DNA from: Paraflavisolibacter caeni
GTDB taxonomy: Bacteria; Bacteroidota; Bacteroidia; Chitinophagales; Chitinophagaceae
DNA: 64,000 nucleotides
Assembly (NCBI RefSeq): GCF_025628885.1
Contig: NZ_JAOTIF010000022.1
Coordinates: forward strand, 1 to 64,000
Reading direction: 5' to 3'
Shown here: piece by piece, positions 5,450 to 25,880 of the stretch
Position numbering within the stretch: the first letter of the stretch is position 1
How the letters are laid out: every line of letters starts with the position of its first letter
Program-made: the position numbers and the translations under genes
Notes under the pieces: generated by a model
What the model was told of the DNA's origin: nothing
Database searches by the model: none
The model's input: the letters and a program-made list of their open reading frames with translations, nothing else

Positions 5450-7861
5450 ATGAAATCAATATACCTGTTGGCTTGCCTGTTGTCCTTTACAGCTACTGCC
5501 CAAAGCGGATGCATTACAGGGTTTGTGCTGGATACGAACCAACAGGCTTTACCCAACGCTTCTGTGGTGCTGCAAAAACCGGTCAACGCATCTTCTGTTG
5601 CAGGAACGGCTACAGACAGCACCGGGCGCTTTATGCTGAACGTTCCGGCGGGCGGCTATCATTTGATGGTAACGATGTCAGGGTTTCAGCATCAACTGTT
5701 CCCGGTGGAAGTATTCGTTGGTAAGACTGTCCGGGTAGGTCCGGTAATGCTCCGGGGAGCGATCCGGGAACTAAAAGAAGCGGTGATCACGGCTACCCGG
5801 AGACCAATAGAGTTTGAAGCCGGCAAAACCATTGTTACGCCCGGCGCGTCCATCCTCACAGCACAGGGCAATCTTTTTGAAGCCCTCAAAAATATTCCCG
5901 GACTCGTGGTGAATGAAGACGGAACCCTGATCCTGAATGGGCAGAAAGGAGTAAATGTGCAGGTGAATGGCAAAGAAACCTATCTCTCAGGCATGGCCTT
6001 GGTGAGCCTGTTGAAAGCAACTTTGGCAACCTCCGTCGACAAGATTGAACTTTTGACCAGTCCTTCGGCAGCATACGATGCCTCCGGAAGTGCCGGCATG
6101 ATCAATATCCGCCTTAAAAGATCTGCTGCACAGGGCTTTACTCTTTCATCGCACCTGAATTATCAGCAGGGGAGGAATGGGAGGGCGGATATGGGCGTAC
6201 GCACCACTTTCAGAAATAAGCTAACGGGGATCAGCCTGGATTATTCCTTCTTTGATGGGGATAAGGCTAAAAAAGGTACGCTCCACCGGGAGTACCACCC
6301 GGCCAATGACACCTTCAGGAAGACTGCCAGTCAAAAAGTGGCTTTAACCAACCAGGACCAAACCCACAACTTCAAACTTACGGCTGATTGGGATGTGACA
6401 AAATATGTTATGGTAGACGTTTATGCTGCCACTGTTTTCTTTCAGAGAAGCGTACCGGGCAGTTCTTATACCAGTTTTTCTTCCGGCAGCACTATTGAAG
6501 ATTCAGTGCTCAATACCAATACTCAAAGCAGGTTTCAGCAAAAGACCTTCAATGGCGGTATGTGCACCGTGTATAAAGACGAAAAAAAGAATGAGCTCAA
6601 TTTTTCAGTTGACCACCTTTCCTTCCGGCACCAGGATCATTTACAGATGCATAGTTGGATGCAGCGGACAAACGCCAGTCTGCCTCTGCGAAACGATACG
6701 CTCTTTGGAACGTTCGATGACAAAGTGCGGATGTGGTCAGCTCAAGCTAATTTTTCAAAACCCCTTCCGTCTCACCTGCAATTTCAATCCGGCCTTAAAC
6801 TCGTAAGGGTTCATATCGATAACCAGGCCCTATACCGTCAGCCTTTCTCCGGTGCGATTGCCACCACCAACAACAGCATATACGCCTATAACGAGCATAA
6901 CAACGCCGCTTACCTGCAGTTGAGTGGCAAATTCAGCCGATGGAGTTTCGTGGCGGGTTTGAGAGCCGAAAACAATCAGATCAGCGGAACTGCCTTCGAC
7001 CTGAAGGGGAGTGGCCATGATTCTACTTACTGCATGGATGATACAAAACTGTTTCCTAACCTGGCGCTGCTCTATCAGCTAACTGAGACCCAGGATATAT
7101 CCGTTACGTATAACCGGAGGATCACCCGGCCCAACTACCGTGACCTGAGTCCATCAGGATATACGGTAGATGAATACATACTCGTTAGTGGCAATACCGG
7201 ACTGCAGGCAGAGCTGACCCACAAGATAGAAATGGCATATATCCTGAAGAAGTTATACCGTGTTACTGTTTTTTATACATGCACGGATGATGCTATTGCA
7301 CAGGGGTTCCGTGAAAGGGAAAATGGTGGCCTGCTGGTTATTCCTGAAAATATGGTAAGCCGGAAAACCCTGGGGTTAAAGGGCGATGCCGGGAACCTGC
7401 TTGATGCAAAATGGTGGAAAATCAGCGGCAGCGGTTCGTTATTCTATACGGAAAACAAATGGACAGAATCATCCCGGCCCAGGAAAAATAGTACCCTTAC
7501 ACCTACGCTCAGTATCAATAACAGTTTTCCTTTGGCAAAAGGGTGGAGCGCCCAGGTGACGGGATATTACAATGGTAAAATGGGGCTGGGGCAAATGGAG
7601 GTTCCCGCTCTTTGGTCTGTATCAGCCGGTGTTCGTAAAAAAATGTTGAAAGAGCAGTTGAATCTTCACCTATACGTGAACGATATCTTTGCCTCTGTCC
7701 GCGAAAGAGCTGCTTTCGGAAGTGGAGCCATTGATGGCTTCAGTAATATTCGGTACGATGAAACCTCCGTTGGACTTTCCATCCACTATCATTTTAAAAA
7801 AGGCAAACAAAAAGAAATGGCGGACAGAAGTATAGAGGAAAGTAAAAGAATTAATTTTTAG
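5450..7861 (+). CDS. TonB-dependent outer-membrane receptor with carboxypeptidase-regulatory-like N-terminus
   Basis: Outer-membrane beta-barrel of 803 aa. The chosen ATG at 5450 begins a signal peptide (MKSIYLLACLLSFTATAQ); the frame is open upstream, but those residues do not fit a signal sequence. Residues ~22-100 (GFVLDTNQQALPNASVVLQ onward) match the CarboxypepD_reg-like beta-sandwich common on Bacteroidota receptors; a plug-like region follows (IPGLVVNEDGTLILNGQKG near 150), then a barrel of the outer-membrane-beta-barrel type. No partner SusD gene is present, so this is not a polysaccharide-uptake pair; receptors of this type often handle siderophores, peptides or metals. The substrate cannot be told. 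The upstream membrane AraC regulator may control it. Confidence 0.85.
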   Translation: MKSIYLLACLLSFTATAQSGCITGFVLDTNQQALPNASVVLQKPVNASSVAGTATDSTGRFMLNVPAGGYHLMVTMSGFQHQLFPVEVFVGKTVRVGPVMLRGAIRELKEAVITATRRPIEFEAGKTIVTPGASILTAQGNLFEALKNIPGLVVNEDGTLILNGQKGVNVQVNGKETYLSGMALVSLLKATLATSVDKIELLTSPSAAYDASGSAGMINIRLKRSAAQGFTLSSHLNYQQGRNGRADMGVRTTFRNKLTGISLDYSFFDGDKAKKGTLHREYHPANDTFRKTASQKVALTNQDQTHNFKLTADWDVTKYVMVDVYAATVFFQRSVPGSSYTSFSSGSTIEDSVLNTNTQSRFQQKTFNGGMCTVYKDEKKNELNFSVDHLSFRHQDHLQMHSWMQRTNASLPLRNDTLFGTFDDKVRMWSAQANFSKPLPSHLQFQSGLKLVRVHIDNQALYRQPFSGAIATTNNSIYAYNEHNNAAYLQLSGKFSRWSFVAGLRAENNQISGTAFDLKGSGHDSTYCMDDTKLFPNLALLYQLTETQDISVTYNRRITRPNYRDLSPSGYTVDEYILVSGNTGLQAELTHKIEMAYILKKLYRVTVFYTCTDDAIAQGFRERENGGLLVIPENMVSRKTLGLKGDAGNLLDAKWWKISGSGSLFYTENKWTESSRPRKNSTLTPTLSINNSFPLAKGWSAQVTGYYNGKMGLGQMEVPALWSVSAGVRKKMLKEQLNLHLYVNDIFASVRERAAFGSGAIDGFSNIRYDETSVGLSIHYHFKKGKQKEMADRSIEESKRINF

Positions 7862-7912
7862 TTTTATAACCGGAAATTTCTGCTGTTACCATTCGCTCAC
7901 TACACTCTATTG

Positions 7913-7979
7913 AACAGGGTAGCGGGAATCCTTCCTTCTCCCGTCACAAACGAGGTTCTCTAACCAACCGCGCTATGGA
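7913..7979 (-). other. Degenerate tRNA-like sequence
   Basis: Read on the minus strand, the segment contains a near-normal D-arm (GCGCGGTTGGTTAGAG), an anticodon-like stem-loop with TTTGTGA in the loop, and an end TTCCCGCTACC resembling a tRNA 3' acceptor strand. The 5' acceptor strand does not pair and the T-arm lacks TTCRA, so it is not a functional tRNA by eye. It may be the relic of a tRNA attachment site beside the toxin-antitoxin and scar region that follows. Chance resemblance is possible. Confidence 0.3.
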
Positions 7980-8091
7980 AGAGCATCATCAAACCTTTAG
8001 CGGTAGTTCTGGTTTGTTTTGGCACATTTTTTAGTCTTATTATTTGTTTCGTTTATTTCGTTTAGCTACTTTTAGATTGAAAATGTGGTTT

Positions 8092-8547
8092 ATGGATGCT
8101 GTACTAGAAAGAACTACCAGAAAAGATCAAAAGATTGCTCAATCTTCTATTTCGAAGATTGAAAAAACATCGAGAAAAGTAATTAGAAAAGACAGTAGTT
8201 CTGTAAAAATCAAAATTCAAGAAAATGGGGAATTTTTGGAAATTCCTAAAAAAGCTCTTTATCTGCTTTTCGACATATTGAAAAATATGGCAGAAGGGAG
8301 GTCCATTACATTACTTCCTTCAGATTCTCAAGTGAGCACTCAACAGGCAGCAGATCTGTTGAATGTATCCAGGCCTCATTTAGTAAAGCTTCTTGAAAAA
8401 GGTGAAATTCCTTTTAAGAAAGTGGGTGCTCATAGAAGAGTTGAGTTAAAAGATGTTATTGCATATGAAGAGAGAATGAAGAAAAATAGAAAGGAGCAAT
8501 TAGATTTTTTAAGTAGACAGGCACAAAAACTTAATTTAGGATATTAA
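8092..8547 (+). CDS. Excisionase/MerR-type helix-turn-helix antitoxin
   Basis: About 151 aa. A basic, low-complexity N-terminus (~1-45) is followed by a short beta-rich part and then a C-terminal DNA-binding module: STQQAADLLNVSRPHLVKLL, KGEIPFKKVGAHRRV and LKDVIAYEERM, the pattern of excisionase-family winged HTH proteins. It overlaps the PIN-domain gene by one base (TAATG), so the two are probably translationally coupled, in the usual antitoxin-first order. It likely neutralises the PIN protein and represses its own operon. The open frame reaches TTG 8044, but ATG 8092 (or ATG 8083) is a more natural start. Confidence 0.75.
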   Translation: MDAVLERTTRKDQKIAQSSISKIEKTSRKVIRKDSSSVKIKIQENGEFLEIPKKALYLLFDILKNMAEGRSITLLPSDSQVSTQQAADLLNVSRPHLVKLLEKGEIPFKKVGAHRRVELKDVIAYEERMKKNRKEQLDFLSRQAQKLNLGY

Positions 8548-9110
8548 TGATTCATTCTGGGAGATTTACAGCACTATTAGATGCAAATGTACTTTACCCA
8601 GCTCCTTTGAGAGATTACTTATTACACCTGGCAAGCTTAGATTTGTTTAAGCCAAAGTGGACAAGTGAGATCCATGATGAATGGATTAGAAATCTCCTCG
8701 CAAAAAGAACCGATCTGAAAAGGGCATCTTTGGAAAAGGCTAAAGAAGCAATGGATGCTGCATTTCCTGATGCGAATATTGTAAACTATGAAGATCTGAT
8801 CAGTGGTGTTGTATTGCGTGATGAAGGAGATAAGCATGTGCTCGCAGCTGCGATCAGGGGAAATGTGGATGTTATCGTAACCTTTAATCTAAAAGATTTT
8901 CCTTCTAAATATCTGAACAAATATGACGTAGATGCTCAGCATCCCGATGAATTTGTCTCCAACCTGATCAACCTTGACAAAGTCAAATGTCAAAAAGCAT
9001 TGAGCAACCAGGTGAAAAGTTTAAAGAACCCTCCTAAGACACAGGTTGAGGTTTTGGAAGCATTGAAAAACTGTGGTTTGGAAAATAGTGTTGTACAATT
9101 AATAGATTAG
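8547..9110 (+). CDS. PIN-domain ribonuclease toxin (VapC50-like)
   Basis: A 187-aa PIN protein. The acidic metal-binding residues are in their usual places: LLDANVLYP (~10-18), SEIHDEW (~40-46), the DEGDKHVLAAAI block (~92) and VTFNLKDFP (~112-120). A ~60-residue C-terminal extension after the PIN fold (from about YDVDAQHPDEF) matches the long VapC50-type organisation rather than the short ~130-aa VapC. PIN toxins cleave structured RNA, often tRNA, when freed from the antitoxin. The start overlaps the stop of the HTH antitoxin gene (TAATG). The target RNA is unknown. Confidence 0.8.
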   Translation: MIHSGRFTALLDANVLYPAPLRDYLLHLASLDLFKPKWTSEIHDEWIRNLLAKRTDLKRASLEKAKEAMDAAFPDANIVNYEDLISGVVLRDEGDKHVLAAAIRGNVDVIVTFNLKDFPSKYLNKYDVDAQHPDEFVSNLINLDKVKCQKALSNQVKSLKNPPKTQVEVLEALKNCGLENSVVQLID

Positions 9111-9138
9111 GAAAGTTGGATTATATCTTTTGATGAAA

Positions 9139-9166
9139 CAAAAAAGGCCGGCATTTGCTGACCTCT
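9139..9166 (-). terminator. Relic copy of a tRNA-Asn-type terminator
   Basis: The hairpin AGGCCGGCATTTGCTGACCT with an adjoining A-run (T-run on the minus strand) is nearly identical to the terminator of the tRNA-Asn gene at 20237-20261. No tRNA follows it here; instead the broken phosphoesterase copy begins 14 bases on. It is probably a piece of duplicated DNA that marks a recombination junction. Confidence 0.6.
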
Positions 9167-9179
9167 TGAAGAAACTTGA

Positions 9180-9490
9180 CTAATCATCTTCATCCTTAAA
9201 CCTGGGATCTATTTTCAGACCGAGGGCTTTTAAGCCCTTTCCGTGTGCGCCGAAGTACTGTTTGGGAAAAGGTTTGTCACCATGGATGGTAGACCATACA
9301 TACTCACTAAATAACAAGGCATCCCTATCAATCAGATCGGGCCTGGAGAAATCCATTCTCTGTGTCAGGGGCGCTAACCTGGCAGTGGTTTTTAAGTTAT
9401 CTTTTGAAAGGTCAACAACAGCAATCTCGTTTGCGATGGCAAGGGCTACAAAAGCAATATTATTGTTGCATAATCCGATTCCTAAGGGAT
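9180..9490 (-). pseudogene. Internally deleted copy of the YVTN/phosphoesterase gene
   Basis: Two blocks match the intact gene at 17456-20047 in the same orientation. Bases 9180-9392 match its 3' end (17456-~17669), including the acidic C-terminus and stop; bases ~9393-9490 match an internal 5' part (~19446-19543, encoding part of the beta-propeller). The ~1.8 kb that separates these blocks in the intact gene is missing, and everything 5' of the second block is replaced by a transposase fragment. Scattered substitutions between the copies show the duplication is not recent. It cannot encode a functional enzyme. Confidence 0.85.
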
Positions 9491-9611
9491 GTAGATCACG
9501 CCACTATACAGCGGTGGGTATATAAGTTTACTCCACTTATCGAATCGGCATTTAAAAAAAGAAAGAAGTTAGTAGGTAAAAGCTGGAGATTTCAACAGAC
9601 GCGACAGAGCC
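9485..9611 (+). mobile_element. IS6-family-like transposase remnant with terminal repeat
   Basis: The plus strand translates as VDHATIQRWVYKFTPLIE then ending KKLVGKSWR, a close fit to the conserved region just before the first catalytic Asp of IS6/IS26-type transposases. The frame loses similarity directly after SWR. At 9601-9611 lies GCGACAGAGCC, one mismatch from the GCAACAGAGCC end typical of IS6-family inverted repeats. So this looks like one end of an IS6-type element with most of the transposase deleted, abutting the broken phosphoesterase copy. Family assignment is by motif memory. Confidence 0.6.
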
Positions 9612-9632
9612 GTGAGGTGACTGCTTCGAACA

Positions 9633-9998
9633 TTATTTGTGATAAACTGCACTGAGCTTGAAGAAAATACCGGAATCATTTTTGCCTATTGCTTTGACAT
9701 TTAAAAGATCATCTTTACCAGCATATTCAATTGAAACAGTTAGTTGTTTCACTTCAGCAGGATTCAGGACTTTTAAAAACTTACAATCGGGCATCTCAAT
9801 CAAATTCAATTTTCTTTTGAGTTGATTTTCCAGCAGTTCTTGTACTATTTGGACCTGGATAACACCTGGTGTTACGGGATGTCCCGGGAAATGACCCTTA
9901 TAAATAATATGACCGGGGTGTAATTTTATTGTTGCGGTCAAGCTGGATTCATTACCAGAATTTTCCATTATTTCAAACAGGTCATTGATCAGGGTCAC
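9633..9998 (-). CDS. FabZ/ApeP-like hotdog dehydratase, His-bearing subunit
   Basis: A 121-aa hotdog protein, last gene of the polyene-like operon. HFPGHPVTPGV (~36-46) carries the catalytic His loop of 3-hydroxyacyl-ACP dehydratases. The Glu of the FabZ active site (in the VLxxEAMAQ helix) appears to be Gln here (GVIQVQIVQE), so the protein may be inactive alone. In aryl-polyene pathways the two dehydratases ApeI and ApeP work as a heterodimer; the hotdog protein at 12421-12837 has the reverse pattern, which suggests the same arrangement. It starts 10 bases after the chain-length-factor-like gene. Confidence 0.75.
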   Translation of the reverse strand: MTLINDLFEIMENSGNESSLTATIKLHPGHIIYKGHFPGHPVTPGVIQVQIVQELLENQLKRKLNLIEMPDCKFLKVLNPAEVKQLTVSIEYAGKDDLLNVKAIGKNDSGIFFKLSAVYHK

Positions 9999-10008
9999 CT
10001 TGCAGGGT

Positions 10009-10965
10009 TTAATTTTTGAGGAGCATTAATCCCAGGTTTCCGGGAATTAAATTGTTGCAGACAAGAATGTTTTTTACCTTATCTCCAAAAATAGAATGGC
10101 CTTTGTTGGATAGTATATCAACAGCATAATGCATTGCAAAGGAGGAGTTGGTATAATAAGTACCCGTGATTTCCTGGTAATCGAACATTTGCCATGGTTG
10201 GAATATTGATTTCAAATCGTTCTTATTCTCCTGATCGCTGACGGCAAAAAGCACAAGGTCTATTTCTTCTGCCAGTGTATTATTTGTATCCAGGAAATTC
10301 TTAATTGTTCCGGTTGTGTTATCAATCAGCCCAAAACTTGCTACATCGACAAGCCGGGCAGATGTGATGCTATCCTGGTTTTTTGACAAGATGAAAAAAG
10401 AGGCGCCACAAGTAAGATGGATCTCTTCATTCTTTAGCCTTGCCCGCATATTATAAATCGTGTCTTCCTCCTCGTCGGCACCGCCCACCAGTACATTCTG
10501 AGCGCCATTCTCAATGGTTAAAATTCCATCGATCAGGCTTTGCTCAAAGGACAAGCTGTTTTGCGTGTGCGTCATATTGTAGCCATGATTTTTTAGTGAC
10601 AGGGCTATTTGCCCGGCTATTGTGTTGTGGGTTGATACGATGAAAGAAGTAGGGGATAAGGGTCCGTTAGTTGCAGCCAGTATTTTATCGAGAAAGTTTT
10701 TGGTGTTGATACTGCAGCCCATGCTAGTGCCTACAATAATTGCATCAGGTTGCTGAATGCCGGCCTGTTGCAAACAATCGAGGGAACATGCAATGGCCAT
10801 TTTTTGTACATGGCTCATTCTTCTTCTTTCCATGGCAGGGATAAAATCGCCATAGTCGGGTGTGATCAATCCAGATGATGGATCCAGTTTCCTGAGGTTC
10901 GATGAGAACCCGGCATTCCTGAACGTGGGTTGATGCGATATGGTTGATGCTGCGTTTATATACAT
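10009..10965 (-). CDS. Chain-length-factor-like beta-ketoacyl synthase homologue
   Basis: A 318-aa thiolase-fold protein shorter than a full ketosynthase. The segment aligning with the nucleophile (STHNTIAGQIAL, ~112-123) has Asn where active enzymes have Cys in TACSSG, and no HGTGT motif is present, so it should not condense on its own. It starts directly after the stop of the true ketosynthase gene. This head-to-tail KS plus Cys-less KS pair matches the KS/CLF heterodimers of type II polyketide and aryl-polyene systems, in which the partner sets chain length. Role by analogy. Confidence 0.75.
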   Translation of the reverse strand: MYINAASTISHQPTFRNAGFSSNLRKLDPSSGLITPDYGDFIPAMERRRMSHVQKMAIACSLDCLQQAGIQQPDAIIVGTSMGCSINTKNFLDKILAATNGPLSPTSFIVSTHNTIAGQIALSLKNHGYNMTHTQNSLSFEQSLIDGILTIENGAQNVLVGGADEEEDTIYNMRARLKNEEIHLTCGASFFILSKNQDSITSARLVDVASFGLIDNTTGTIKNFLDTNNTLAEEIDLVLFAVSDQENKNDLKSIFQPWQMFDYQEITGTYYTNSSFAMHYAVDILSNKGHSIFGDKVKNILVCNNLIPGNLGLMLLKN

Positions 10966-12135
10966 TTACCAGGCTTTACCAAATATTAAGCAAGTACAGT
11001 TTCCTCCGAAGCCAAACGAATTGGAAAGAACATAGTCAATTTTTGCTGAACGGAAACTGGTTTCAGGTGTCATGTTGGTTTCTTTCATTGGCGTTGAAAA
11101 ATTCAAATTAGGCAGTGGTGCCTGCGACAGTATGGATTGAACACAATAGACGGCTTCGATGGCGCCTGCGGCAGCTAACGTATGCCCGGTAAATCCTTTG
11201 GTAGAGCTGAAGGAAGGCATGGCATCACCAAACACATTTCTTAGGGCCATTGATTCTGACAGGTCATTATTAGAGGTGCCGGTGCCGTGTGCATTGACAT
11301 AATTTATGTTGCCTGCAGTTATGCCGGCTTTTGCCAAAGCATTGATCATTGCCAGATAGGCTCCTTTTCCATCAGGGGAGCTGGCCGTTTGATGGAAAGC
11401 ATCAGTAGCATTATTCCAGCCCGACAGCATGCAAAGTGGTTTGTTGCCTGTAACGGAAATGCTATGTTCATTTTCGAGCACCAGGTAAGCGGCTCCTTCG
11501 CCAAGGTTTAGCCCCGATCTTTTATCATCAAAAGGCTTGCATATTTCGTTGTCGAAAATATTCAATGAACTAAAACCCTTTACATCGAAAGTTGCCAGTG
11601 GTTCAGACGCTCCAACAACTACCCTGTCCAATTTATTTCCTTCCAACAGGCGGGCTCCCTGCATAATGGCATTTGCGCCCGATGAGCAAGCGGTGGATAT
11701 GGTGCCAATGTAACCGGAAATCCCTAATTCAGCCGCTACTCTTTCCGTTGTGCGGCCGTTGTCGTGCGTCATTAGTGAGTAGGTGCGGGCTGTTTTGCTG
11801 GTTTGTGATTCAAAGTAGTATTTCTCTGTTCGATCCAGTCCTCCAACAGACGTTGCAGATATCAACCCTGTTCGTACCGACTTGTTTATTTTATTGTTGC
11901 TCCAGGCTTCCTTTGCTGCCAATATTGCCAGCAGCGTAGTGCGGGAGTAATCTTCATTGGGCAGATCCAATTTTTCTATCAGTTGCTCATTGCTCAACCT
12001 GACTTCTCCAAGCATCAGGTTGAAGTTAGCAGATCTGCTGAGTCCCGTGGTAAGAGATTGGAGTGAACGAAGATTTTGTTCAGCATCCTGGCCAATAGCA
12101 CTTACCACACCAATACCTGTTACAAATATTTTCAC
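10966..12135 (-). CDS. Beta-ketoacyl-[ACP] synthase (FabF-like)
   Basis: A 389-aa ketosynthase with the full catalytic triad: Cys in STACSSGANAI (~150), His in NAHGTGTSNND (~285), and Lys/His in STKGFTGHTLAAAGAIEA (~320). The C-terminal SNSFGFGGNC glycine-rich segment is also present. It performs decarboxylative condensation of malonyl-ACP units onto a growing ACP-bound chain. It overlaps the ACP gene by 4 bases and abuts the chain-length-factor-like gene, so the three are co-expressed. Housekeeping FabF is not usually encoded next to a Cys-less partner, which argues for a secondary pathway. Confidence 0.9.
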   Translation of the reverse strand: MKIFVTGIGVVSAIGQDAEQNLRSLQSLTTGLSRSANFNLMLGEVRLSNEQLIEKLDLPNEDYSRTTLLAILAAKEAWSNNKINKSVRTGLISATSVGGLDRTEKYYFESQTSKTARTYSLMTHDNGRTTERVAAELGISGYIGTISTACSSGANAIMQGARLLEGNKLDRVVVGASEPLATFDVKGFSSLNIFDNEICKPFDDKRSGLNLGEGAAYLVLENEHSISVTGNKPLCMLSGWNNATDAFHQTASSPDGKGAYLAMINALAKAGITAGNINYVNAHGTGTSNNDLSESMALRNVFGDAMPSFSSTKGFTGHTLAAAGAIEAVYCVQSILSQAPLPNLNFSTPMKETNMTPETSFRSAKIDYVLSNSFGFGGNCTCLIFGKAW

Positions 12136-12395
12136 TTGTTTTTTTCTTTTTGTTCAAGGATAAATTCGCTCATAGCGTTGATGGAAGCGAGCACTTTTTT
12201 GCCGGTTTCCTCATCGGTAATTTTTACCCCGTAGTATTTTTCCATCAGTACTACAAGTTCCAAGGCATCAATTGAATCCAATCCTAGTCCATCTCCAAAC
12301 AGGGGCGCATCATCCTCTATATCTTCCGGTTGGATGTCTTCCAGGTTCAGTTCTTCGATAATCTGTTTTTTAAGTTCATATTTCAGATCACTCAT
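12132..12395 (-). CDS. Acyl carrier protein
   Basis: An acidic, helical 87-aa protein. The phosphopantetheine-attachment serine lies in GLGLDSIDALELVVLMEKYY (the S of DSID). ATG 12395 (MSDLKYELKK) gives the usual ACP length; ATG 12401 two codons upstream is an alternative, and a longer frame to 12431 would overlap the upstream dehydratase gene. The stop overlaps the ketosynthase start by 4 bases. It carries the growing chain of this pathway; no phosphopantetheinyl transferase gene is in the window, so a genomic one must serve. Confidence 0.9.
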   Translation of the reverse strand: MSDLKYELKKQIIEELNLEDIQPEDIEDDAPLFGDGLGLDSIDALELVVLMEKYYGVKITDEETGKKVLASINAMSEFILEQKEKNK

Positions 12396-12420
12396 AATCA
12401 TTTCGTTAATCTTAATTGTA

Positions 12421-12837
12421 TCAGATGCCAACCAGTTTTATTTCACATTCCATGAGCTTCCTGTCCTCGCAGTAATTTACTCCTTTCAATAAAAACATAT
12501 TCTCCAGCCGGGCAACCAGGTTTACTATTGTATAGATGGTTTCATTTACTTTGGGCAGTTCATATAATTTCAATTTTGAAACGCCCCCAAGATATCCATC
12601 GGCCTTTTGTTTGCCAAAAAATAAACCGGACGATGCCAATCCTGCTGAACTGGTTTGAGCAATATTTTCGATCAGTGCAAATTCTCTTAGTAAATCATTT
12701 TCAAGAAAAATATTGCCTGGTAAGATCCGGAAATCTGACCTAAAAGTTTCAGCAGAAGCCTCAATAAGGTTATCGATCATAATGAACGGAGGCCGCTGCG
12801 GAATAAAGTCTTCTATTTTTTCTTTAGGAATGATCAT
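12421..12837 (-). CDS. Hotdog dehydratase, Glu-bearing subunit (ApeI/FabZ-like)
   Basis: A 138-aa hotdog protein. FIPQRPPFIMIDNL near the start is the FabZ-type opening motif, and ALIENIAQTSSAG (~54-66) retains the Glu of the active-site helix. The HFPG loop that holds the catalytic His in FabZ is missing (FLENDLLREF instead). It therefore mirrors the hotdog protein at 9633-9998, which keeps His but lacks Glu. Probably a dehydratase subunit that works with that partner on ACP-bound 3-hydroxyacyl chains. Its start overlaps the FabG-like stop by one base. Confidence 0.7.
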   Translation of the reverse strand: MIIPKEKIEDFIPQRPPFIMIDNLIEASAETFRSDFRILPGNIFLENDLLREFALIENIAQTSSAGLASSGLFFGKQKADGYLGGVSKLKLYELPKVNETIYTIVNLVARLENMFLLKGVNYCEDRKLMECEIKLVGI

Positions 12838-13568
12838 CAGGAATAAAGTCCGCCGTTTATATGGATCACTTCCCCGGTAATGTAAGAAGATTTTTCGGAT
12901 GCCAGAAAACTGACAAGGTGTGCCACTTCCTCGGGTTGCCCGATCCGGCCTGCGGGAATTGACTTCATGTACTTTTCCATATCAACACCTTTTAACATGG
13001 CTGTATCAATAAAGCCAGGTGCTACTGCATTTACGGTAATATTCATTTTGGCAACTTCCTGTGCCAACGATTTAGTGGCACCGATGATACCTGCCTTGGC
13101 TGCCGAATAGTTGGTTTGTCCTGCAACGCCTTTGAGACCTGACACCGACGACATGTTAATGATCCGGCCTGTTTTATTTTTCAGCATCTGGCGTATCACA
13201 TTTTGTGTCACATTAAACATGCCTTTTAAAGAAATGCCAATGACGTCGTCCCAATTTTTCTCAGACATCCACATGAATAGCGTATCCTTTGCAATACCGG
13301 CATTATTTACAAGAACGCGGATAAATCCATCCGGATGCTCTTGCTGCCAATTGCTGATCACGCTGTCCACCTCCTGTTTGTTTTCAACATTAAATTTAAG
13401 AAGTTCGGCGCTGCCGCCCTCAGCGGTGATTGTGGCCAGCGTTTCCTCTGCGGCAGGTAAGTCCGATGAATAATTGATTAAAATGTGCAGGCGGTGGTCC
13501 CTGGAAAGTTGTAACGCAATAGCCCGCCCAATGCCTTTGGAAGCCCCGGTTATTAATGCACAATTCAT
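12837..13568 (-). CDS. 3-oxoacyl-[ACP] reductase, FabG-like SDR
   Basis: A 243-aa short-chain dehydrogenase. The NADP-binding TGASKGIGRAIAL, the structural NNAG (~90), and the catalytic Ser-Tyr-Lys set in NMSSVSG and TNYSAAKAG are all present, along with the VNAVAPGFIDT segment and a GGLYS C-terminus. It would reduce the 3-oxoacyl-ACP made by the ketosynthase. One-base overlaps with both flanking genes show tight coupling within the operon. Confidence 0.9.
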   Translation of the reverse strand: MNCALITGASKGIGRAIALQLSRDHRLHILINYSSDLPAAEETLATITAEGGSAELLKFNVENKQEVDSVISNWQQEHPDGFIRVLVNNAGIAKDTLFMWMSEKNWDDVIGISLKGMFNVTQNVIRQMLKNKTGRIINMSSVSGLKGVAGQTNYSAAKAGIIGATKSLAQEVAKMNITVNAVAPGFIDTAMLKGVDMEKYMKSIPAGRIGQPEEVAHLVSFLASEKSSYITGEVIHINGGLYS

Positions 13569-14521
13569 CAGGCTGGTTTAATTCTCTTTTTCCTGTTCAC
13601 TAACTTTATTATACCAAAGATGGATAGGGCGATAAGAACCACTCCAAACGCGACAGTCCCTGCACTACCGCCAATTGCGATCATGCAAATGCCTGAGCAA
13701 GTAGTCACGATCAATAAAAGAACCAGAAATATGGTACCTACAGTTGCCCAGGCACCAAAAGCCTTTCTTAATTTTAAGACCTGCTTCATCATTCTCTGTT
13801 TTTTCCTTTCCAGTCTTTTGGCTTTTTTCCCGGGTTTTATCTTTCCCGGTTCTTCTTTCCCCGGATCGATTGTGGCTGATTTGTGTCCCGTAACGGCGAA
13901 TGAAGCAAACGAAACCATCGAGGCGTTTTCATTGATCGATGCTGCCTGCTGTTGATTGCTGTAAGATGCTAATTCCAGGTCCGGCACATCGGCTGGTGGA
14001 AGGTCCTGGGAAAAAATTGCCTGGTCAATTGAGCTTAAAGTATGGCTTAATGGCGAATTGGGGAATTGATCTTCAATGCGGTTTCCGGTGATCACCATCA
14101 GTGCAAATGCCGAAAGGATAATACTCAGGTAAGCTATTCTATCCCTGTTCAGTGTAACAGGCAAGGCAATGGTATTTCTTTTCGGAAGAAAGGGTATGGA
14201 GAAAAACCCGATGCACAGAATAGTACCAAATACAACAGTGGCCGTAGTACTTAGCTGGTAGCCTAGTTCTTTCAAATTATAACCGATCAAAAGTCCCAGG
14301 AAAATGATAGCTATTTGCAAAACAGTGATGAGTACCTGGGTTTTACGGGGATTTGCTTTTGCCCATCTTGTCACCTGCATACCTCTGAAATTCCGCATGA
14401 CTGCTATGATCGCTATAGCCATGAGCGCGGTTGACGAATATATCCGCCCAGCACTGATGAATATGGCGGCTGTAACAACCAAAACAATTGCTGCGATGGA
14501 AAGGAGTAAATTTCTATTCAT
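13568..14521 (-). CDS. Membrane protein of unknown function in the polyene-like operon
   Basis: 317 aa, not recognised. Five N-terminal hydrophobic segments (~5-145), then a ~100-residue soluble stretch that turns strongly basic (PGKKAKRLERKKQRMMK, ~225-245), then two more membrane segments (~258-305) ending in RKKRIKPA. The stop overlaps the FabG-like start by one base, so it is translated with the pathway enzymes. It could help place the product in the membrane or hold the enzymes there, but nothing in the sequence proves a role. Confidence 0.7.
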   Translation of the reverse strand: MNRNLLLSIAAIVLVVTAAIFISAGRIYSSTALMAIAIIAVMRNFRGMQVTRWAKANPRKTQVLITVLQIAIIFLGLLIGYNLKELGYQLSTTATVVFGTILCIGFFSIPFLPKRNTIALPVTLNRDRIAYLSIILSAFALMVITGNRIEDQFPNSPLSHTLSSIDQAIFSQDLPPADVPDLELASYSNQQQAASINENASMVSFASFAVTGHKSATIDPGKEEPGKIKPGKKAKRLERKKQRMMKQVLKLRKAFGAWATVGTIFLVLLLIVTTCSGICMIAIGGSAGTVAFGVVLIALSIFGIIKLVNRKKRIKPA

Positions 14522-14562
14522 GAAAAATCTTATTTGTACCTGGTAAACCCTCCCGTCTCATG

Positions 14563-15426
14563 CTAGTTTTCTTGCAAAAGTTCGGATTGGATCTGTGCCG
14601 GCAAGTGACCGTTATTATGATTGAAAATATAGAAATAATTATTTGTAAGCAAGGCGCCAGGAATTTTTATATCGTTCACTGGCCTGTTGCAAATTATACG
14701 ACAAGCCATATCCACATCCTCATTAACTGAATTGGATGCCATACGGCTGATGGCTGCAAGCAGGATCCCAATTTGTAATTGTTTATAATGTTTACCGGAA
14801 ATTGTGGAAAGATAGTTGAGATTATCCTCTGTATTTCCGCCAACGTACCCGCAGGCAATTCCAATTCCGCGAAATAAATCCGGGTGCCTTATTACAGGAA
14901 AGTTTTCGACCAAATGATAAACCTCGCTTACATTTCCCCTGGCCATATACCATAGCCGCCTTCCAAGCCCCTGGTCGAAACCCTCCAGGCTTTCACCCTC
15001 CATCCCGGCAGGTAAAAGTTTGTTTTTTATCGTGTTTCTTCCTTTGAAAAGGCCATAGTAATAACCTATTCCATCCAACACCATCCATTTTAGTGCAGGG
15101 TTCATTGATTGGAGATATGGGCCGGGTTGTATGTCTTTTTTGGCAAATGCCCATCCAAGTCCTATGTCGATATGGAACATATGCTGCTTTGCGCAGGCCT
15201 GCCTGAATTGCATCCAGTCGTTTAATGCCCCACCGGTGTTCAAGTCTCTTAACCCGATTTCAAATGAAGCACCTTCATAAGCCACTGATCGAAACCCTGG
15301 TGGTTCCTGGTCAAGAAAAGTAATGAGCTCGTCTAATGCATAAAGGCTCTCAACAGACCGGCCTGTATCCATGAATAGTTTCTGGATGTATTCCATTCTC
15401 ATGGATACATTATTATCCGTATGCAT
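14563..15426 (-). CDS. DUF1702 family protein
   Basis: 287 aa. Segments such as SVAYEGASFEIGLRDL, FHIDIGLGWAFAK, LKWMVLDGIGYYYGLF, FDQGLGRRLWYMARG and GIGIACGYVGG recall DUF1702 proteins, which are found in enediyne and other polyketide gene sets and have no settled biochemical role. The start overlaps the flavin-enzyme gene by 14 bases, and 41 bases separate it from the next gene. Its presence supports the reading of this operon as a specialised-metabolite locus rather than primary fatty-acid synthesis. Confidence 0.7.
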   Translation of the reverse strand: MHTDNNVSMRMEYIQKLFMDTGRSVESLYALDELITFLDQEPPGFRSVAYEGASFEIGLRDLNTGGALNDWMQFRQACAKQHMFHIDIGLGWAFAKKDIQPGPYLQSMNPALKWMVLDGIGYYYGLFKGRNTIKNKLLPAGMEGESLEGFDQGLGRRLWYMARGNVSEVYHLVENFPVIRHPDLFRGIGIACGYVGGNTEDNLNYLSTISGKHYKQLQIGILLAAISRMASNSVNEDVDMACRIICNRPVNDIKIPGALLTNNYFYIFNHNNGHLPAQIQSELLQEN

Positions 15427-17128
15427 TTTCCGCTGTTTTGATTTTTTTCAGCCACATTTTATCAATATCCATTTTAATGAGATCATCGACGGGTAAGGCA
15501 TTTGCTGCTCCTGATTTCTCAAGGAGCCCGGCTTTTCCATCATCGAGCTTCATGTGGTAAGGATCGACTTTCATATCCATGGGCGTATGAAAAACCTCAT
15601 TGCTTACTTTTCTGAATATCTCCGCAGCAATTTGCTCCAGTAATTTCAAATTAGATTCGAGCCTGGGTATCAAGTTTTCGCGACCTATTTGCTGCCCGAT
15701 CTCACCTTGAAGCTGTTTGAGGCATGTAAGGTCAAAAACATTCAATTGGTGACCGGAACATTTTTCAACGTGGTACCCTCCCCATGTGCGGAAAAGGTGC
15801 TGCATGTTTTCATTAAGGGTCGCAAAACGTTGGCCAATGCTATTACCGGGAGAAGAATATTGTTTTAGTACTTCTATATCCGTATACCCCTTATTTGAAA
15901 ACAAGACATTTGGAATCGCCCAATAGGTAGCCCAATCCCAGATTATTTTCATTAACATGATCTGCGTTTTACCGAAAAGGCCATACATGTCGCGATAAAT
16001 GGATGCCCATCCGCGGAACAGTTGTTTATGCGCATGATCATATACCAGGGAGCGCAGGGCTATGTCTTCGCCATCCAGGTCGCGGGCGATAAGATCTGTG
16101 ATCCACGTATTACTTAACCCGATAAAATCAGAGCCTGGTGAATATAAAGGGTCAAGAAAAGCGCCGGCTTCGCCTGCAACAGCCCACCTTTGCGAGGAGT
16201 AGAACTGTTTGGTGTCATAAGCAAAATGCTTCATCACCTTAAAGTCCATCAGTTTGTTTTTATGTTCCTCCAGCATGTTTGCCGCAAGCGGTTCATGTGT
16301 TCTTAACCAGTTCATTGATTTTTCAAAACTGTTGAACCCGGAAAAGGGGTGATACCTGGGATCTGCAACAATTCCAATGCTGGTCCTGTCTTCGATCAAT
16401 GGAATGATCCATACCCAATATCCTTCGCCCATCAGGTGGTTTGTCGCCAGCCGCCTGCGTCCCGGATCAATAAAGTTGCGCCAGTCAAGATCATCCGACC
16501 AGTAATCAACATCAATGTTGGCATCCAACCTGAACCAAGCGGCATTAATATTATGATCGATGTCCTTGTCGAGGTCCAGTTTTCTTTTCAGGAAACTGTT
16601 TCTCCCTGTTGAATCAACAAACCATTTAGACCCGGTGAGGTGTTGACTACCTTCTTTTTCAAATTGAATGGTATGTCCATCCGGCGATAGTTCGACACCG
16701 GTGACCTTGGCTCCTAAGACGATCTTAATTCCGCACCCGGTTGCCTGTTGCACCAGGTCATTCTCCAGCTGTCCCCTGTCTACCTGATGTGAAGGGAAGG
16801 GGTTAAAGATTTTCGATCCTACTTCAACACGTTTGGTTATATCGCCGGCATGTTCAGGACTAAAGAAAAAGCGGAATCCGAATTTGCGTAACTGGCAGTC
16901 GGTTAAGTAGCCTTTGAGGTTAAGTACTTCACGCAGGTAATAAGCGCCCAGTTCGCTTAATGATTCGCCCACCTTATGGGTGGCTTTAGGTGCGCTTTCA
17001 GCCCTTTTTTCCAAAACAAGAATATTGGCGGCAGGCTTTGATTGCTTTAGTTGTAAGGCAAGCGTTAAGCCAGCCAAACCACCACCTGCAATAATAACAT
17101 CGTATTTGATTTGATTTTGGTTGAGCAT
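15413..17128 (-). CDS. FAD-dependent halogenase-like oxidoreductase
   Basis: 571 aa, first gene of the operon. The N-terminus has the FAD-binding GGGLAGLTLALQL (~15-27) followed by VGESLSELG (~53), as in flavin-dependent halogenases, and WVWIIP near residue 235 matches the WxWxIP signature of that family. It lacks a clear halide-channel signature that I can confirm, so halogenation versus hydroxylation or desaturation is open. The C-terminal ~200 residues are an extension beyond the core fold. Its position with ketosynthase, ACP and DUF1702 genes points to tailoring of an ACP-bound or finished polyene. Confidence 0.75.
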   Translation of the reverse strand: MLNQNQIKYDVIIAGGGLAGLTLALQLKQSKPAANILVLEKRAESAPKATHKVGESLSELGAYYLREVLNLKGYLTDCQLRKFGFRFFFSPEHAGDITKRVEVGSKIFNPFPSHQVDRGQLENDLVQQATGCGIKIVLGAKVTGVELSPDGHTIQFEKEGSQHLTGSKWFVDSTGRNSFLKRKLDLDKDIDHNINAAWFRLDANIDVDYWSDDLDWRNFIDPGRRRLATNHLMGEGYWVWIIPLIEDRTSIGIVADPRYHPFSGFNSFEKSMNWLRTHEPLAANMLEEHKNKLMDFKVMKHFAYDTKQFYSSQRWAVAGEAGAFLDPLYSPGSDFIGLSNTWITDLIARDLDGEDIALRSLVYDHAHKQLFRGWASIYRDMYGLFGKTQIMLMKIIWDWATYWAIPNVLFSNKGYTDIEVLKQYSSPGNSIGQRFATLNENMQHLFRTWGGYHVEKCSGHQLNVFDLTCLKQLQGEIGQQIGRENLIPRLESNLKLLEQIAAEIFRKVSNEVFHTPMDMKVDPYHMKLDDGKAGLLEKSGAANALPVDDLIKMDIDKMWLKKIKTAENAYG

Positions 17129-20261: not shown

Positions 20262-20267
20262 TCTTCG

Positions 20268-20341
20268 CTCCCCCTGCTGGACTTGAACCAGCGACCCTCT
20301 GATTAACAGTCAGATGCTCTAACCAACTGAGCTAAGGAGGA
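20268..20341 (-). tRNA. tRNA-Asn (GTT), copy 1
   Basis: The cloverleaf closes fully: acceptor TCCTCCT/AGGGGGA, D-arm AGCTCAGTTGGTTAGAGC, anticodon loop CTGTTAA (GTT), T-arm with GGTTCAAGTCC. The 3' CCA is not encoded. Upstream on the minus strand TATTTTCG (20368-20361) is one base off the -7 consensus. It is identical in its 74-nt body to the copy at 22577-22653. Confidence 0.95.
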
Positions 20342-22576: not shown

Positions 22577-22653
22577 TGGCTCCCCCTGCTGGACTTGAAC
22601 CAGCGACCCTCTGATTAACAGTCAGATGCTCTAACCAACTGAGCTAAGGAGGA
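22577..22653 (-). tRNA. tRNA-Asn (GTT), copy 2
   Basis: Same 74-nt body as the copy at 20268-20341, here with an encoded 3' CCA (TGG at 22577-22579 on the plus strand). The minus-strand -7 box is a perfect TATTTTTG (22684-22677), and the leader CACTCCCAAAACGGGAAA is shared with copy 1, so the duplicated unit includes the promoter. Confidence 0.95.
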
Positions 22654-23882: not shown

Positions 23883-24092
23883 ATGAGTTTCAAAGAAGTA
23901 GCCGAAGTAAGACCTTATTCAACAAAGGAATTGGCACAGATATACGGGGTTTGCGACAAAACCCTCATCAAATGGATGAAACCTTTTACCGATGATATAG
24001 GCGAAAAGCGAGGCCGTTTTTTCACCGTGGCACAGGTAGAGATCATCTTCAACAAACTGGGTATGCCATACAGGATCAAAGGAGAAATATGA
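23883..24092 (+). CDS. Small helix-turn-helix protein
   Basis: 69 aa. YSTKELAQIYGVCDKTLIKW is a clear HTH, followed by KRGRFFTVAQVEIIFNKLG, a pattern I associate with many small MerR/excisionase-like proteins in Bacteroidota. It lies 23 bases after the XRE/IrrE-like gene. Likely a DNA-binding regulator of the local accessory genes; no partner is proven. Confidence 0.7.
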   Translation: MSFKEVAEVRPYSTKELAQIYGVCDKTLIKWMKPFTDDIGEKRGRFFTVAQVEIIFNKLGMPYRIKGEI

Positions 24093-24137
24093 CGCCTCAT
24101 GATCAATAAACAACCCAACCGGCACAAAACAAAAATT

Positions 24138-24178
24138 GCCAGTAACTGATTACCTCTTTCCCGTAACCAGCTACTGGC
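24138..24178. terminator. Imperfect long hairpin between convergent genes
   Basis: GCCAGTAACTGATTAC and GTAACCAGCTACTGGC pair over 16 bases with two mismatches and a 9-nt loop. It sits between the convergent small HTH gene and the 65-aa gene and may end transcription both ways, though there is no strong T-run. Confidence 0.45.
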
Positions 24179-24223
24179 AACCCGCTGCCACAATCCACGA
24201 CTCTCCGCCTCGAAACTGAAATC

Positions 24224-24421
24224 TCAATTCCGCAATATCTCCCTCACCTGCTCCTCCTTCAATCCCGTAAAACTGCAAAAGTCATCTACGCTCACCAGTG
24301 CATCCTTATCCTTATGAAACTTCTTCCTGATCGCCGCGATCATCCTTCTCGCTGTCCGGTCACTTTTTCCCGTAATGATGATAACATCTTTCGTATACAA
24401 TATAATCCTCGTCTTCGCCAT
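24224..24421 (-). CDS. Small DNA-binding-like protein (65 aa)
   Basis: The protein is basic in the middle; KDVIIITGKSDRTARRMIAA looks like an HTH and DFCSFTGLKEEQVREIL like a second short helical motif. Similar tiny proteins recur in Bacteroidota accessory regions, to my memory, but have no assigned role. It is the most 3' gene of a minus-strand run of five or six small genes. Confidence 0.6.
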   Translation of the reverse strand: MAKTRIILYTKDVIIITGKSDRTARRMIAAIRKKFHKDKDALVSVDDFCSFTGLKEEQVREILRN

Positions 24422-24458
24422 ATATACTCGATTAGCTTGTTATGATGTGATTTATTAA

Positions 24459-24989
24459 CTACGCTCTTCCATATTGCATATTCGCCACAATCTCCAAAAA
24501 CAACTCCCAAAGTAATCCTTCCCCTCTTTCCAAGAAATAGATCTTCCAATACCAGAAGGTCTTGTCTGAATCATCCCTGGCCATTTCCAGTACCGCTTCT
24601 GCCAGCGCTTTCCATTCCCACCTGTACAGCGGAAGTGAAGAGCGCCTGTCTAGCATTTGATCCAACCAAGCTTCCGTACCGGCAAAGCCATTCGGATTGT
24701 TGCGATCCAGCCAGTGTGAAGGCAGTGGAATATACCGGTGATTGCCCTGTCTAACATACTCTCTGGCCAGTAAAACGCGCTCACAAAAGCAGTAATAAGC
24801 CCTTTCCCTGTCGGTGCACTGTAATAGGTATTGTCGGATGGCGTTTTGGGCCCTCTCTTTCTCCTGCGAAGAAAAAAGGTTATGCGCCCACAAAGCTGTA
24901 TAGGCAAAATTCCATGCAGCGCGAACCATCAGGTTCAGACTGACTTCAGCTCTTATTTCATGTTGTTGTGTTATAGTTTGCTGTATCAT
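24459..24989 (-). CDS. Hypothetical protein (176 aa)
   Basis: Not recognised. It is rich in Trp, Tyr, Arg and Leu and probably all-helical, with no signal peptide. The frame is open to 25118, but the first 43 residues look non-coding; ATG 24989 (MIQQTITQQHEIRAEV) is a better start. It lies 37 bases upstream of the 65-aa gene in the same direction. Trp-rich segments include RNNPNGFAGTEAWLDQML and KTFWYWKIYFLERGEG. Confidence 0.55.
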   Translation of the reverse strand: MIQQTITQQHEIRAEVSLNLMVRAAWNFAYTALWAHNLFSSQEKERAQNAIRQYLLQCTDRERAYYCFCERVLLAREYVRQGNHRYIPLPSHWLDRNNPNGFAGTEAWLDQMLDRRSSLPLYRWEWKALAEAVLEMARDDSDKTFWYWKIYFLERGEGLLWELFLEIVANMQYGRA

Positions 24990-25299
24990 AAAAATTGTTT
25001 TTTGTTTATACATCAAAGATGATCCATCGCTCTTACCCCGTTTCCTCTTTAAGACCTGTTGTACCAGGTTATACCAAACATTTCCCTGTAAAGTCCAATT
25101 AGTAACAACTACGCTCACCTGTTCCCAACTATTCCTCCTTATTCCTGTTTATGCTCCTTTATTACAGAATGATCCTTCTTCGCACGCTCACCCTTTCCCT
25201 TCCCACTACACCTTTCAACCTTCAACCTCATCTCCTAATTCGTCATTCATCAATCCAGCGATTCTCCATTCACCGAGAAAGAGGCTTTCGCCTCTTTCT
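24990..25299. other. Intergenic stretch, no gene seen
   Basis: Pyrimidine-rich on the plus strand. The only structure is the hairpin at 25276-25299. Confidence 0.5.
25276..25299 (-). terminator. Hairpin abutting the 64-aa gene stop
   Basis: AGAAAGAGGC and GCCTCTTTCT form a perfect 10-bp stem with a 4-nt loop, directly after the stop codon at 25300-25302 on the minus strand. A short T-rich tail follows. Confidence 0.55.
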
Positions 25300-25494
25300 T
25301 CAGCGTTTCCGCTTCAATCGCTTAACCAGGAACTTCAATCCCCAGGAAACTAGATAACTCACCACCGCGCCAATTGCCGCCAGCACGGTAGTCTTCAGGA
25401 TCTCACCACTGCCAATCTGGATCAGCAGTACAAACAGTGTTCCTCCAACCGTCCCGGTAAGCGTATACACGCCCGGTGAAAAGTTAGTTTCCAT
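25300..25494 (-). CDS. Small membrane protein (64 aa)
   Basis: Two hydrophobic helices (~18-28 and ~32-55) and a strongly basic C-terminus (KFLVKRLKRKR). It overlaps the 79-aa gene by 11 bases. The two-helix, positively charged design is like a small holin or a toxin-like membrane protein, but nothing proves it. Not recognised. Confidence 0.5.
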   Translation of the reverse strand: METNFSPGVYTLTGTVGGTLFVLLIQIGSGEILKTTVLAAIGAVVSYLVSWGLKFLVKRLKRKR

Positions 25495-25723
25495 CTCCTT
25501 CAGTTTTAGGTTCCGGATTTTCTGCCATCGTTGCCACTTGGCTTACTGCTGTAGCTACACTGCCCGCTACTGCGAGATAACCCGCCACCTGCATCACTAC
25601 AGCCGGTAATGCCACCGGAGCCGCTAAGATGGATGCACTAACTGCTGCCAATACCAATCCCACTGTCCGCACTTTCTTAAAGAACTTCGGTGTCGGAGCT
25701 ATAATTCTATCTAAGATGTTCAT
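25484..25723 (-). CDS. Small membrane-associated protein (79 aa)
   Basis: A short amphipathic basic N-terminus (PTPKFFKKVRT) is followed by an Ala/Val-rich hydrophobic region (~20-66) and an acidic tail (PEPKTEGDGN). It overlaps the next gene by 11 bases, so the two small membrane proteins are likely made together. Not recognised. Confidence 0.5.
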   Translation of the reverse strand: MNILDRIIAPTPKFFKKVRTVGLVLAAVSASILAAPVALPAVVMQVAGYLAVAGSVATAVSQVATMAENPEPKTEGDGN

Positions 25724-25861
25724 GATGTTAAGTTTAATTGTTTACTAATTCAATTACGATTGTTCAAGAAAGTTGTGAATAGGAGGGAGGTTCTAATCTC
25801 CCCTCTGTCCTCTATCGTCTGTCTTTCACCATCCGAAATCCCTCCCTCCATTCGTCACGTG

Positions 25862-25876
25862 TCCGCCTCAGGCGGA
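25862..25876 (-). terminator. TCCGCCT-C-AGGCGGA palindrome after the 251-aa gene
   Basis: A 7-bp perfect stem just past the stop at 25881. The same core occurs as a dispersed intergenic palindrome in many Bacteroidota, from memory, so it may be a repeat element rather than a dedicated terminator. Confidence 0.4.
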
Positions 25877-25880
25877 TTCC

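Follow-up and report, generated by a model that had tools for sequence, protein, structure and literature searches.

The 64,000-nucleotide stretch of Paraflavisolibacter caeni DNA analysed here (contig NZ_JAOTIF010000022.1, positions 1 to 64,000; hereafter the window) carries a block of nine intact open reading frames (ORFs) on the minus strand, running from 17128 to 9633 over about 7.5 kb. The gene order is a flavin-dependent halogenase-like gene (HAL), a DUF1702 gene, a membrane protein gene, a ketoreductase (KR), a hotdog protein (hotdog b), an acyl carrier protein (ACP), a ketosynthase (KS), a chain-length-factor-like ketosynthase (CLF) and a second hotdog protein (hotdog a). Intergenic gaps, counted from HAL to hotdog a, are -14, 41, -1, -1, -11, -4, 0 and 10 bp. 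An earlier note, made from the sequence alone, had described these nine genes in very tight order; every frame proved intact where it placed them, with families named by Pfam and NCBIfam models:

15413..17128, minus strand: HAL, flavin-dependent halogenase-like protein, first gene (Pfam Trp_halogenase 41.7 bits, cut-off 21).
14563..15426, minus strand: DUF1702 protein, partner of HAL (PF08012 157 bits, cut-off 25).
13568..14521, minus strand: membrane protein with about six hydrophobic segments (hydropathy; five other cassettes have homologues in the corresponding position).
12837..13568, minus strand: KR, FlxB-like ketoreductase (NCBIfam FlxB 366.4 bits, cut-off 340; YxxxK and NNAG motifs).
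12421..12837, minus strand: hotdog b, dehydratase half with Glu and without His (no Pfam family; weak FabZ match).
12132..12431, minus strand: ACP, start codon uncertain (PRK09184 87.2 bits, cut-off 70; DSI attachment motif).
10966..12135, minus strand: KS, Cys-His-His, polyene type (best model PRK09185, 298.4 bits, below the cut-off of 407).
10009..10965, minus strand: CLF, chain-length-factor-like KS without the active Cys (Ketoacyl-synt_2 72.6 bits, cut-off 25).
9633..9998, minus strand: hotdog a, dehydratase half that keeps the GHFP His and has Gln replacing Glu (FabA-like 28.1 bits, cut-off 23; ApeI-like below cut-off).

Pfam and NCBIfam scans of the nine genes revealed no lyase, ligase, acyltransferase or thioesterase, which bears out the note's remark that the block contains no aryl-starter, acyltransferase or thioesterase gene.

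A scan with the HAL alignment returned 24 loci, all in metagenome-assembled genomes of Bacteroidota groups. The complete nine-gene set (the cassette), in the same order and strand arrangement, was found in the window and in five of these loci: L092 (a contig of genome G676), L094, L095 (a contig of G158), L096 (a contig of G300) and L097. The L094 copy has two membrane genes. L110 represents an eight-gene form in which only the membrane gene is missing, and the contig carrying L093 ends right after HAL and DUF1702. Identities between the window proteins and their cassette relatives range from 31% (membrane protein, L097) to 79% (ACP, L092). No homologue was common to different loci among 43 flanking ORFs (at least 90 amino acids, aa) of the seven relatives (E 1e-6), and none was shared between these and 29 flanking ORFs of the window. 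Because the flanks have no homologue in common, within the flank length available, the unit appears to be the nine genes themselves; their order is beyond chance, since it is repeated in five other genomes with unrelated flanking ORFs. A small number of Bacteroidota, only distantly related to one another, share this gene order. The neighbourhood comparison proposed in the earlier note thus yielded a recurrent block with intact frames, and not one unique to this genome with broken frames.

The block is nonetheless rare and its distribution very patchy. A CLF search of 394 genomes of the family gave some match in 133 (E<=0.001), with a close CLF in two, the P. caeni genome itself (G000) and G676 (473.5 bits, 67% identity); the next best match reached 159.7 bits and 38%. 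Eight other members of the genus in this family sample had no CLF match at the same threshold. When a profile of the cassette CLFs was run against a phylum sample of 395 genomes, 16 matched at E<=1e-60; G000 scored 561.9 bits and the next genome 243.7, so that a close CLF is present in 1 of 395. DUF1702 was found in 23 genomes of a class sample (n = 395), three of which (G000, G300 and G158) carry the nine-gene block.

The residues expected of an elongation system are conserved: the Cys, His and His of the KS, the YxxxK motif of the KR and the Ser of the ACP are each present in seven of seven cassettes. The CLF has an Asn at the position of the active Cys, read by eye from an STHNT stretch that occurs in all seven rows. 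In a tree of 25 KS, a branch (99/99) separated the seven cassette KS from six KS of FabF loci; six KS of other polyene-like loci were nearer to the cassette proteins. The only PDB matches of the CLF at E<=0.01 were 7f28_A and 6qsp_B, which we take to be aryl-polyene chain-length factors, just as we take the chains of 7f28, 6qsp, 3esi and 6qsr to be aryl-polyene proteins. The ACP scored above the PRK09184 cut-off and below the AcpP-type models. For the earlier note, a grouping of KS and ACP with FabF and AcpP of primary metabolism would have counted against its reading; the tree places the KS apart from FabF, and the assignment of the ACP comes from family models alone. Collectively, gene families, PDB matches, the KS tree and catalytic residues support the claim of a full polyene-type elongation set devoid of starter genes.

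If the block instead made a variant membrane fatty acid, or some other primary-metabolic lipid, its dedicated ACP, KR and dehydratases, all similar to fatty acid synthase parts, would fit. The KS also matches FabF chains well: a FabF scored 180.7 bits, about level with 7f28_B (181.8 bits) and 6qsp_A (180.0 bits). Against these similarities stand the separation of the cassette KS from the six FabF-locus KS, the Cys-less KS partner and the very patchy distribution, and we consider a product other than a polyene very unlikely.

The P. caeni genome contains eight hits to PF00109, all in frames of 318-445 aa. Those scoring more than 30 bits are FabF, the cassette KS and the cassette CLF; the other five (22.5-25.4 bits, above the Pfam cut-off of 20.8) are presumably thiolases. 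Since FabF, KS and CLF account for the hits above 30 bits, the block serves no second polyene cluster in its own genome, and the frame lengths of the eight hits indicate that this genome has no type I polyketide synthase (PKS).

The two hotdog proteins each carry half of a dehydratase active site. Across the seven cassettes, hotdog a always has the His, and its Glu is replaced by Gln (five) or Lys (two); hotdog b always has the Glu, and its His is replaced by Ile (five), Val (one) or Leu (one). Both residues are present in three of three FabZ comparison rows, and they can also be seen in the corresponding stretch of the P. caeni FabZ (L168), which lies outside that alignment. Because hotdog dimers share catalytic residues across their interface, a single mixed active site, with His from hotdog a and Glu from hotdog b, is the simple reading. 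The same half-sites were read by eye in three hotdog a rows and four hotdog b rows from outside the cassettes, so this division is shared by a broader group of Bacteroidota than the cassette carriers. Hotdog a matched 3esi (4e-05) and, weakly, 6qsr (0.013) in the PDB; both have Asp at the Glu position, where hotdog a has Gln or Lys.

The elongation genes are accompanied by HAL and DUF1702. The best PDB match of the HAL profile was PltA, and CmlS and ChlB4 were also recovered. K82 of HAL aligns with a Lys of PltA that we take to be catalytic, and the nearest solved relatives presumably include halogenases acting on carrier-bound substrates. We regard this Lys, WxWxIP and FxDPxxSxG as marks of flavin halogenases. 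Counted over 35 rows (at least 450 aa, more than 35% identity, identical rows removed), K82, FxDPxxSxG and WxWxI were present in all 35 and the final Pro of WxWxIP in 33; HAL itself has the whole flavin-halogenase set (catalytic Lys, WxWxIP, FxxPxxSxG). In the HAL tree, the eight cassette loci lay on one side of a branch (100/99) and 27 others on the opposite side. HAL might still hydroxylate, dehydrogenate or otherwise oxidise the chain and so give an unhalogenated polyene lipid, whichever starter is used. The geranylgeranyl reductase family and the QhpG monooxygenase are among its best NCBIfam models beside CmlS, all below cut-off. This alternative, against which stand the retention of the three motifs in 33-35 of 35 rows and a halogenase as best structural match, seems somewhat unlikely to us.

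HAL and DUF1702 are adjacent (within about 110 bp) in 19 of the 23 DUF1702 loci of the class sample; two of the remaining loci have both genes nearby, one is cut by a contig end and one is the enediyne-like locus L030. In the overlapping set of 24 HAL loci, DUF1702 is adjacent in 18, nearby in one and absent from the available DNA in five. The predicted DUF1702 model is all-helical, with a predicted local distance difference test score (pLDDT) of 86.8 and a predicted template-modelling score of 0.87, and a structure search with it gave no clear relative. L030, from a genome of the same class (G455), combines DUF1702 with RnfD-like, FG-GAP/UnbV and KS-AT-ACP-KR-DH proteins. We take DUF1702 to be enediyne E3, and enediyne biosynthesis is reportedly unified by a diiodotetrayne intermediate, going by the title of a 2024 paper. 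A survey gives E3/E4/E5/E/E10 as the gene set that all enediynes share (PMC5181780), and a figure legend elsewhere marks DUF1702 family/enediyne biosynthesis proteins in enediyne clusters (PMC7692728). Adjacency to HAL and occurrence in enediyne loci together suggest that DUF1702 may take part in modifying polyenes. In the flexirubin-like locus L031, a further halogenase-like protein (8877-10112, 411 aa), more distant in sequence, was noticed beside HAL/DUF1702.

How the chain is primed bears directly on the nature of the pathway. Flexirubin synthesis in Chitinophaga pinensis starts with the tyrosine ammonia-lyase FlxA and the ligase FlxY (PMC3992019), and the aryl polyene of Escherichia coli with the ligase ApeH acting on 4-hydroxybenzoate (PMC8253772). 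The block has no FlxA/FlxY- or ApeH-like starter genes, ligases and chorismate-using enzymes acting in trans being outside the genome-wide searches. A PF00221 search found one aromatic lyase in G000 and none in G300 or G158. The lyase of G000 is HutH: it scored 599.2 bits with the HutH model (cut-off 539.15) and 298.1 bits with the FlxA model (cut-off 700), and the urocanate hydratase HutU is encoded close by. The lyase of the flexirubin-like locus L036, by comparison, exceeds the FlxA cut-off (820.9 bits vs 700). No relative of the ketosynthase III (KSIII) of L036 was found in the P. caeni genome at E<=0.001.

The block could be an ordinary aryl polyene or flexirubin-type pathway cut down to its elongation core, with the aryl starter, release and anchoring enzymes supplied in trans. 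The KR above the FlxB cut-off and the ACP above that of PRK09184 fit such a pathway, as do the matches of KS, CLF and hotdog a to PDB chains that we assume to be aryl-polyene proteins. In Azoarcus, the polyene genes are split between two unlinked clusters, each of them essential (PMC3949708), and coloured intermediates are still formed by E. coli mutants in apeD, apeJ and apeK (PMC8253772). A tyrosine ammonia-lyase is absent from three cassette genomes, G000, G300 and G158, the search not extending to G676 or the genomes of L094, L097 and L110; moreover, the P. caeni genome lacks a second polyene KS as well as the KSIII relative, and the relatives' flanks have no gene family in common. We therefore regard an aryl pathway completed in trans as rather unlikely. 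The case for an aryl starter is weakened but keeps some standing, the genome-wide searches covering neither ligases nor chorismate-using enzymes. Of the two explanations offered in the earlier note, the one invoking a tyrosine-derived aryl starter in trans has lost ground, and we lean towards a different polyene that may be halogenated or acyl-primed.

On balance, and with modest confidence, we read the block as a type II polyene synthase that is complete in itself and carries HAL and DUF1702 as a tailoring pair; an aryl group is probably not its primer. KS and CLF would condense malonyl units on the dedicated ACP, with malonyl loading borrowed from fatty acid synthesis. KR would then reduce, and hotdog a and hotdog b would act as one mixed dehydratase to which they contribute His and Glu, respectively; repeated rounds would yield an ACP-bound conjugated chain. 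Given the lack of a tyrosine ammonia-lyase in the three genomes searched, the starter would more likely be a small acyl or fatty acyl group drawn from primary metabolism than an aryl one. HAL together with DUF1702 would modify the ACP-bound chain, probably by halogenation, and the membrane protein may, as a guess, anchor the complex or receive the product at the membrane. A bolder and distinctly improbable extension is that the two proteins HAL and DUF1702 are a portable module that halogenates carrier-bound polyenes and perhaps converts them further to haloalkenes or alkynes. Such a module would work for flexirubin-type pigments as well as for the non-aryl polyene of the nine genes, and DUF1702 would act with other partners in enediynes; the block, priming itself, would then be a minimal pathway to halogenated polyene or polyyne lipids of a new class.

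Several observations weigh against a self-contained, non-aryl, halogenating pathway. Regarding the starter, a 44% relative of the L036 KSIII is present in G158, and an aryl group could come from chorismate as 4-hydroxybenzoate. L110 has, immediately outside its block and on the opposite strand (7273-10999), genes for a KSIII, an alpha/beta hydrolase, a fatty acid hydroxylase and a sulfotransferase; such neighbours accompany no other block copy within the flanks available. Some of these flanks are short (0.5 and 2.3 kb for L092, 0.2 kb on the right of L093, 0.9 kb on the left of L110). Three KS of flexirubin-like loci (L031, L036 and L104) fell on the FabF side of the tree; because of this, and because the tree warns of long branches, the exact sister of the cassette KS is unsure. 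G676 has a further PF00109 hit in a frame of 1894 aa, and hotdog b may be non-catalytic. As to tailoring, the best NCBIfam model of HAL, CmlS, reached 70 bits against a cut-off of 900, and halogenase motifs by themselves are no proof that HAL halogenates. HAL and DUF1702 also adjoin true flexirubin genes, including the FlxA-type lyase of L036, so the pair is no argument against an aryl chain. The membrane protein is missing from L110, being present in six of seven complete block copies, and its predicted model is poor (pLDDT 45.6).

The membrane protein, which the earlier note left unexplained, had no Pfam or NCBIfam hit above cut-off and shares 31-44% identity with six homologues in five cassettes, including an invariant TRWA..NP.K.Q stretch. 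In L095 (12567-13661) and L096 (12533-13660) the homologue starts with a lipoprotein-like signal and is extended at the N-terminus; the window copy has neither feature.

Around the block, a remnant with deletions of a phosphoesterase gene occupies the left flank (9137-9488, minus strand) and is not part of the pathway; an intact phosphoesterase gene lies to the right (about 17452/17456-20083). Direct repeats of 217, 95 and 31 nt (93-94%) connect the two, with residues 806-875 and 174-212 matched, and the genome holds further relatives of this gene. The position of the block between a phosphoesterase gene and the remnant of a second copy is a hint at its insertion route. Elsewhere in the window, two tRNA-Asn genes (20267-20341 and 22577-22653; 99% over 78 nt) stand on either side of a histidine kinase gene, and the strongest local GC skew of any 2-kb step (-0.267) occurs at 24001-26000, where no tandem repeat or Rfam hit was found.

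A polyene pathway this small could be moved whole into a laboratory host. It offers a test of how a polyene synthase lacking an aryl starter is primed and of whether a Bacteroidota dehydratase acts only as a mixed pair. It also bears on the role that DUF1702, a functionally uncharacterised protein which enediyne clusters contain as well, has beside a halogenase. The block marks an uncharted lipid of environmental Bacteroidota, all 24 loci of the HAL scan being metagenome-assembled drafts.

Among known systems, HAL resembles the flavin halogenases PltA, ChlB4 and CmlS in profile match and motifs; it is longer (571 aa, vs chains of 455 aa for PltA and 449 aa for ChlB4), and its substrate would be a polyene chain. 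DUF1702 is common to the block and the enediyne PKS cassette (E3/E4/E5/E/E10; PMC5181780), whereas a type I PKS and UnbU or UnbV partners are missing from the block (UnbU and UnbV not being searched genome-wide), and its chain would be built by separate proteins. The flexirubin cluster of C. pinensis (flxA-flxY) shares the FlxB-type KR, and in L036 HAL/DUF1702 stand beside an FlxA-type lyase. However, that cluster spans Cpin_1853 to Cpin_1877 plus a separate darA/darB, against nine genes here, and the word halogen is absent from the main text of the paper (PMC3992019); the block itself lacks an FlxA lyase, an FlxY ligase and dialkylresorcinol genes. A further likeness is to the aryl polyene clusters of E. 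coli CFT073 and Xenorhabdus doucetiae, which also combine a KS with a Cys-less KS, a KR, two hotdog dehydratases and a dedicated ACP. They have two ACPs where the block has one, and hotdog a differs from 3esi and 6qsr at the Glu position. Compared with the E. coli gene list (PMC8253772), the block is without an ApeH-like ligase, a second initiating KS, an acyltransferase, a thioesterase, LolA or an RND exporter (the ligase, acyltransferase, thioesterase and export genes not being searched genome-wide), and adds HAL, DUF1702 and another membrane protein. Because it lacks that family's starter and export genes, the block is set apart as a variant and not a member, yet it works like the aryl polyene elongation module.

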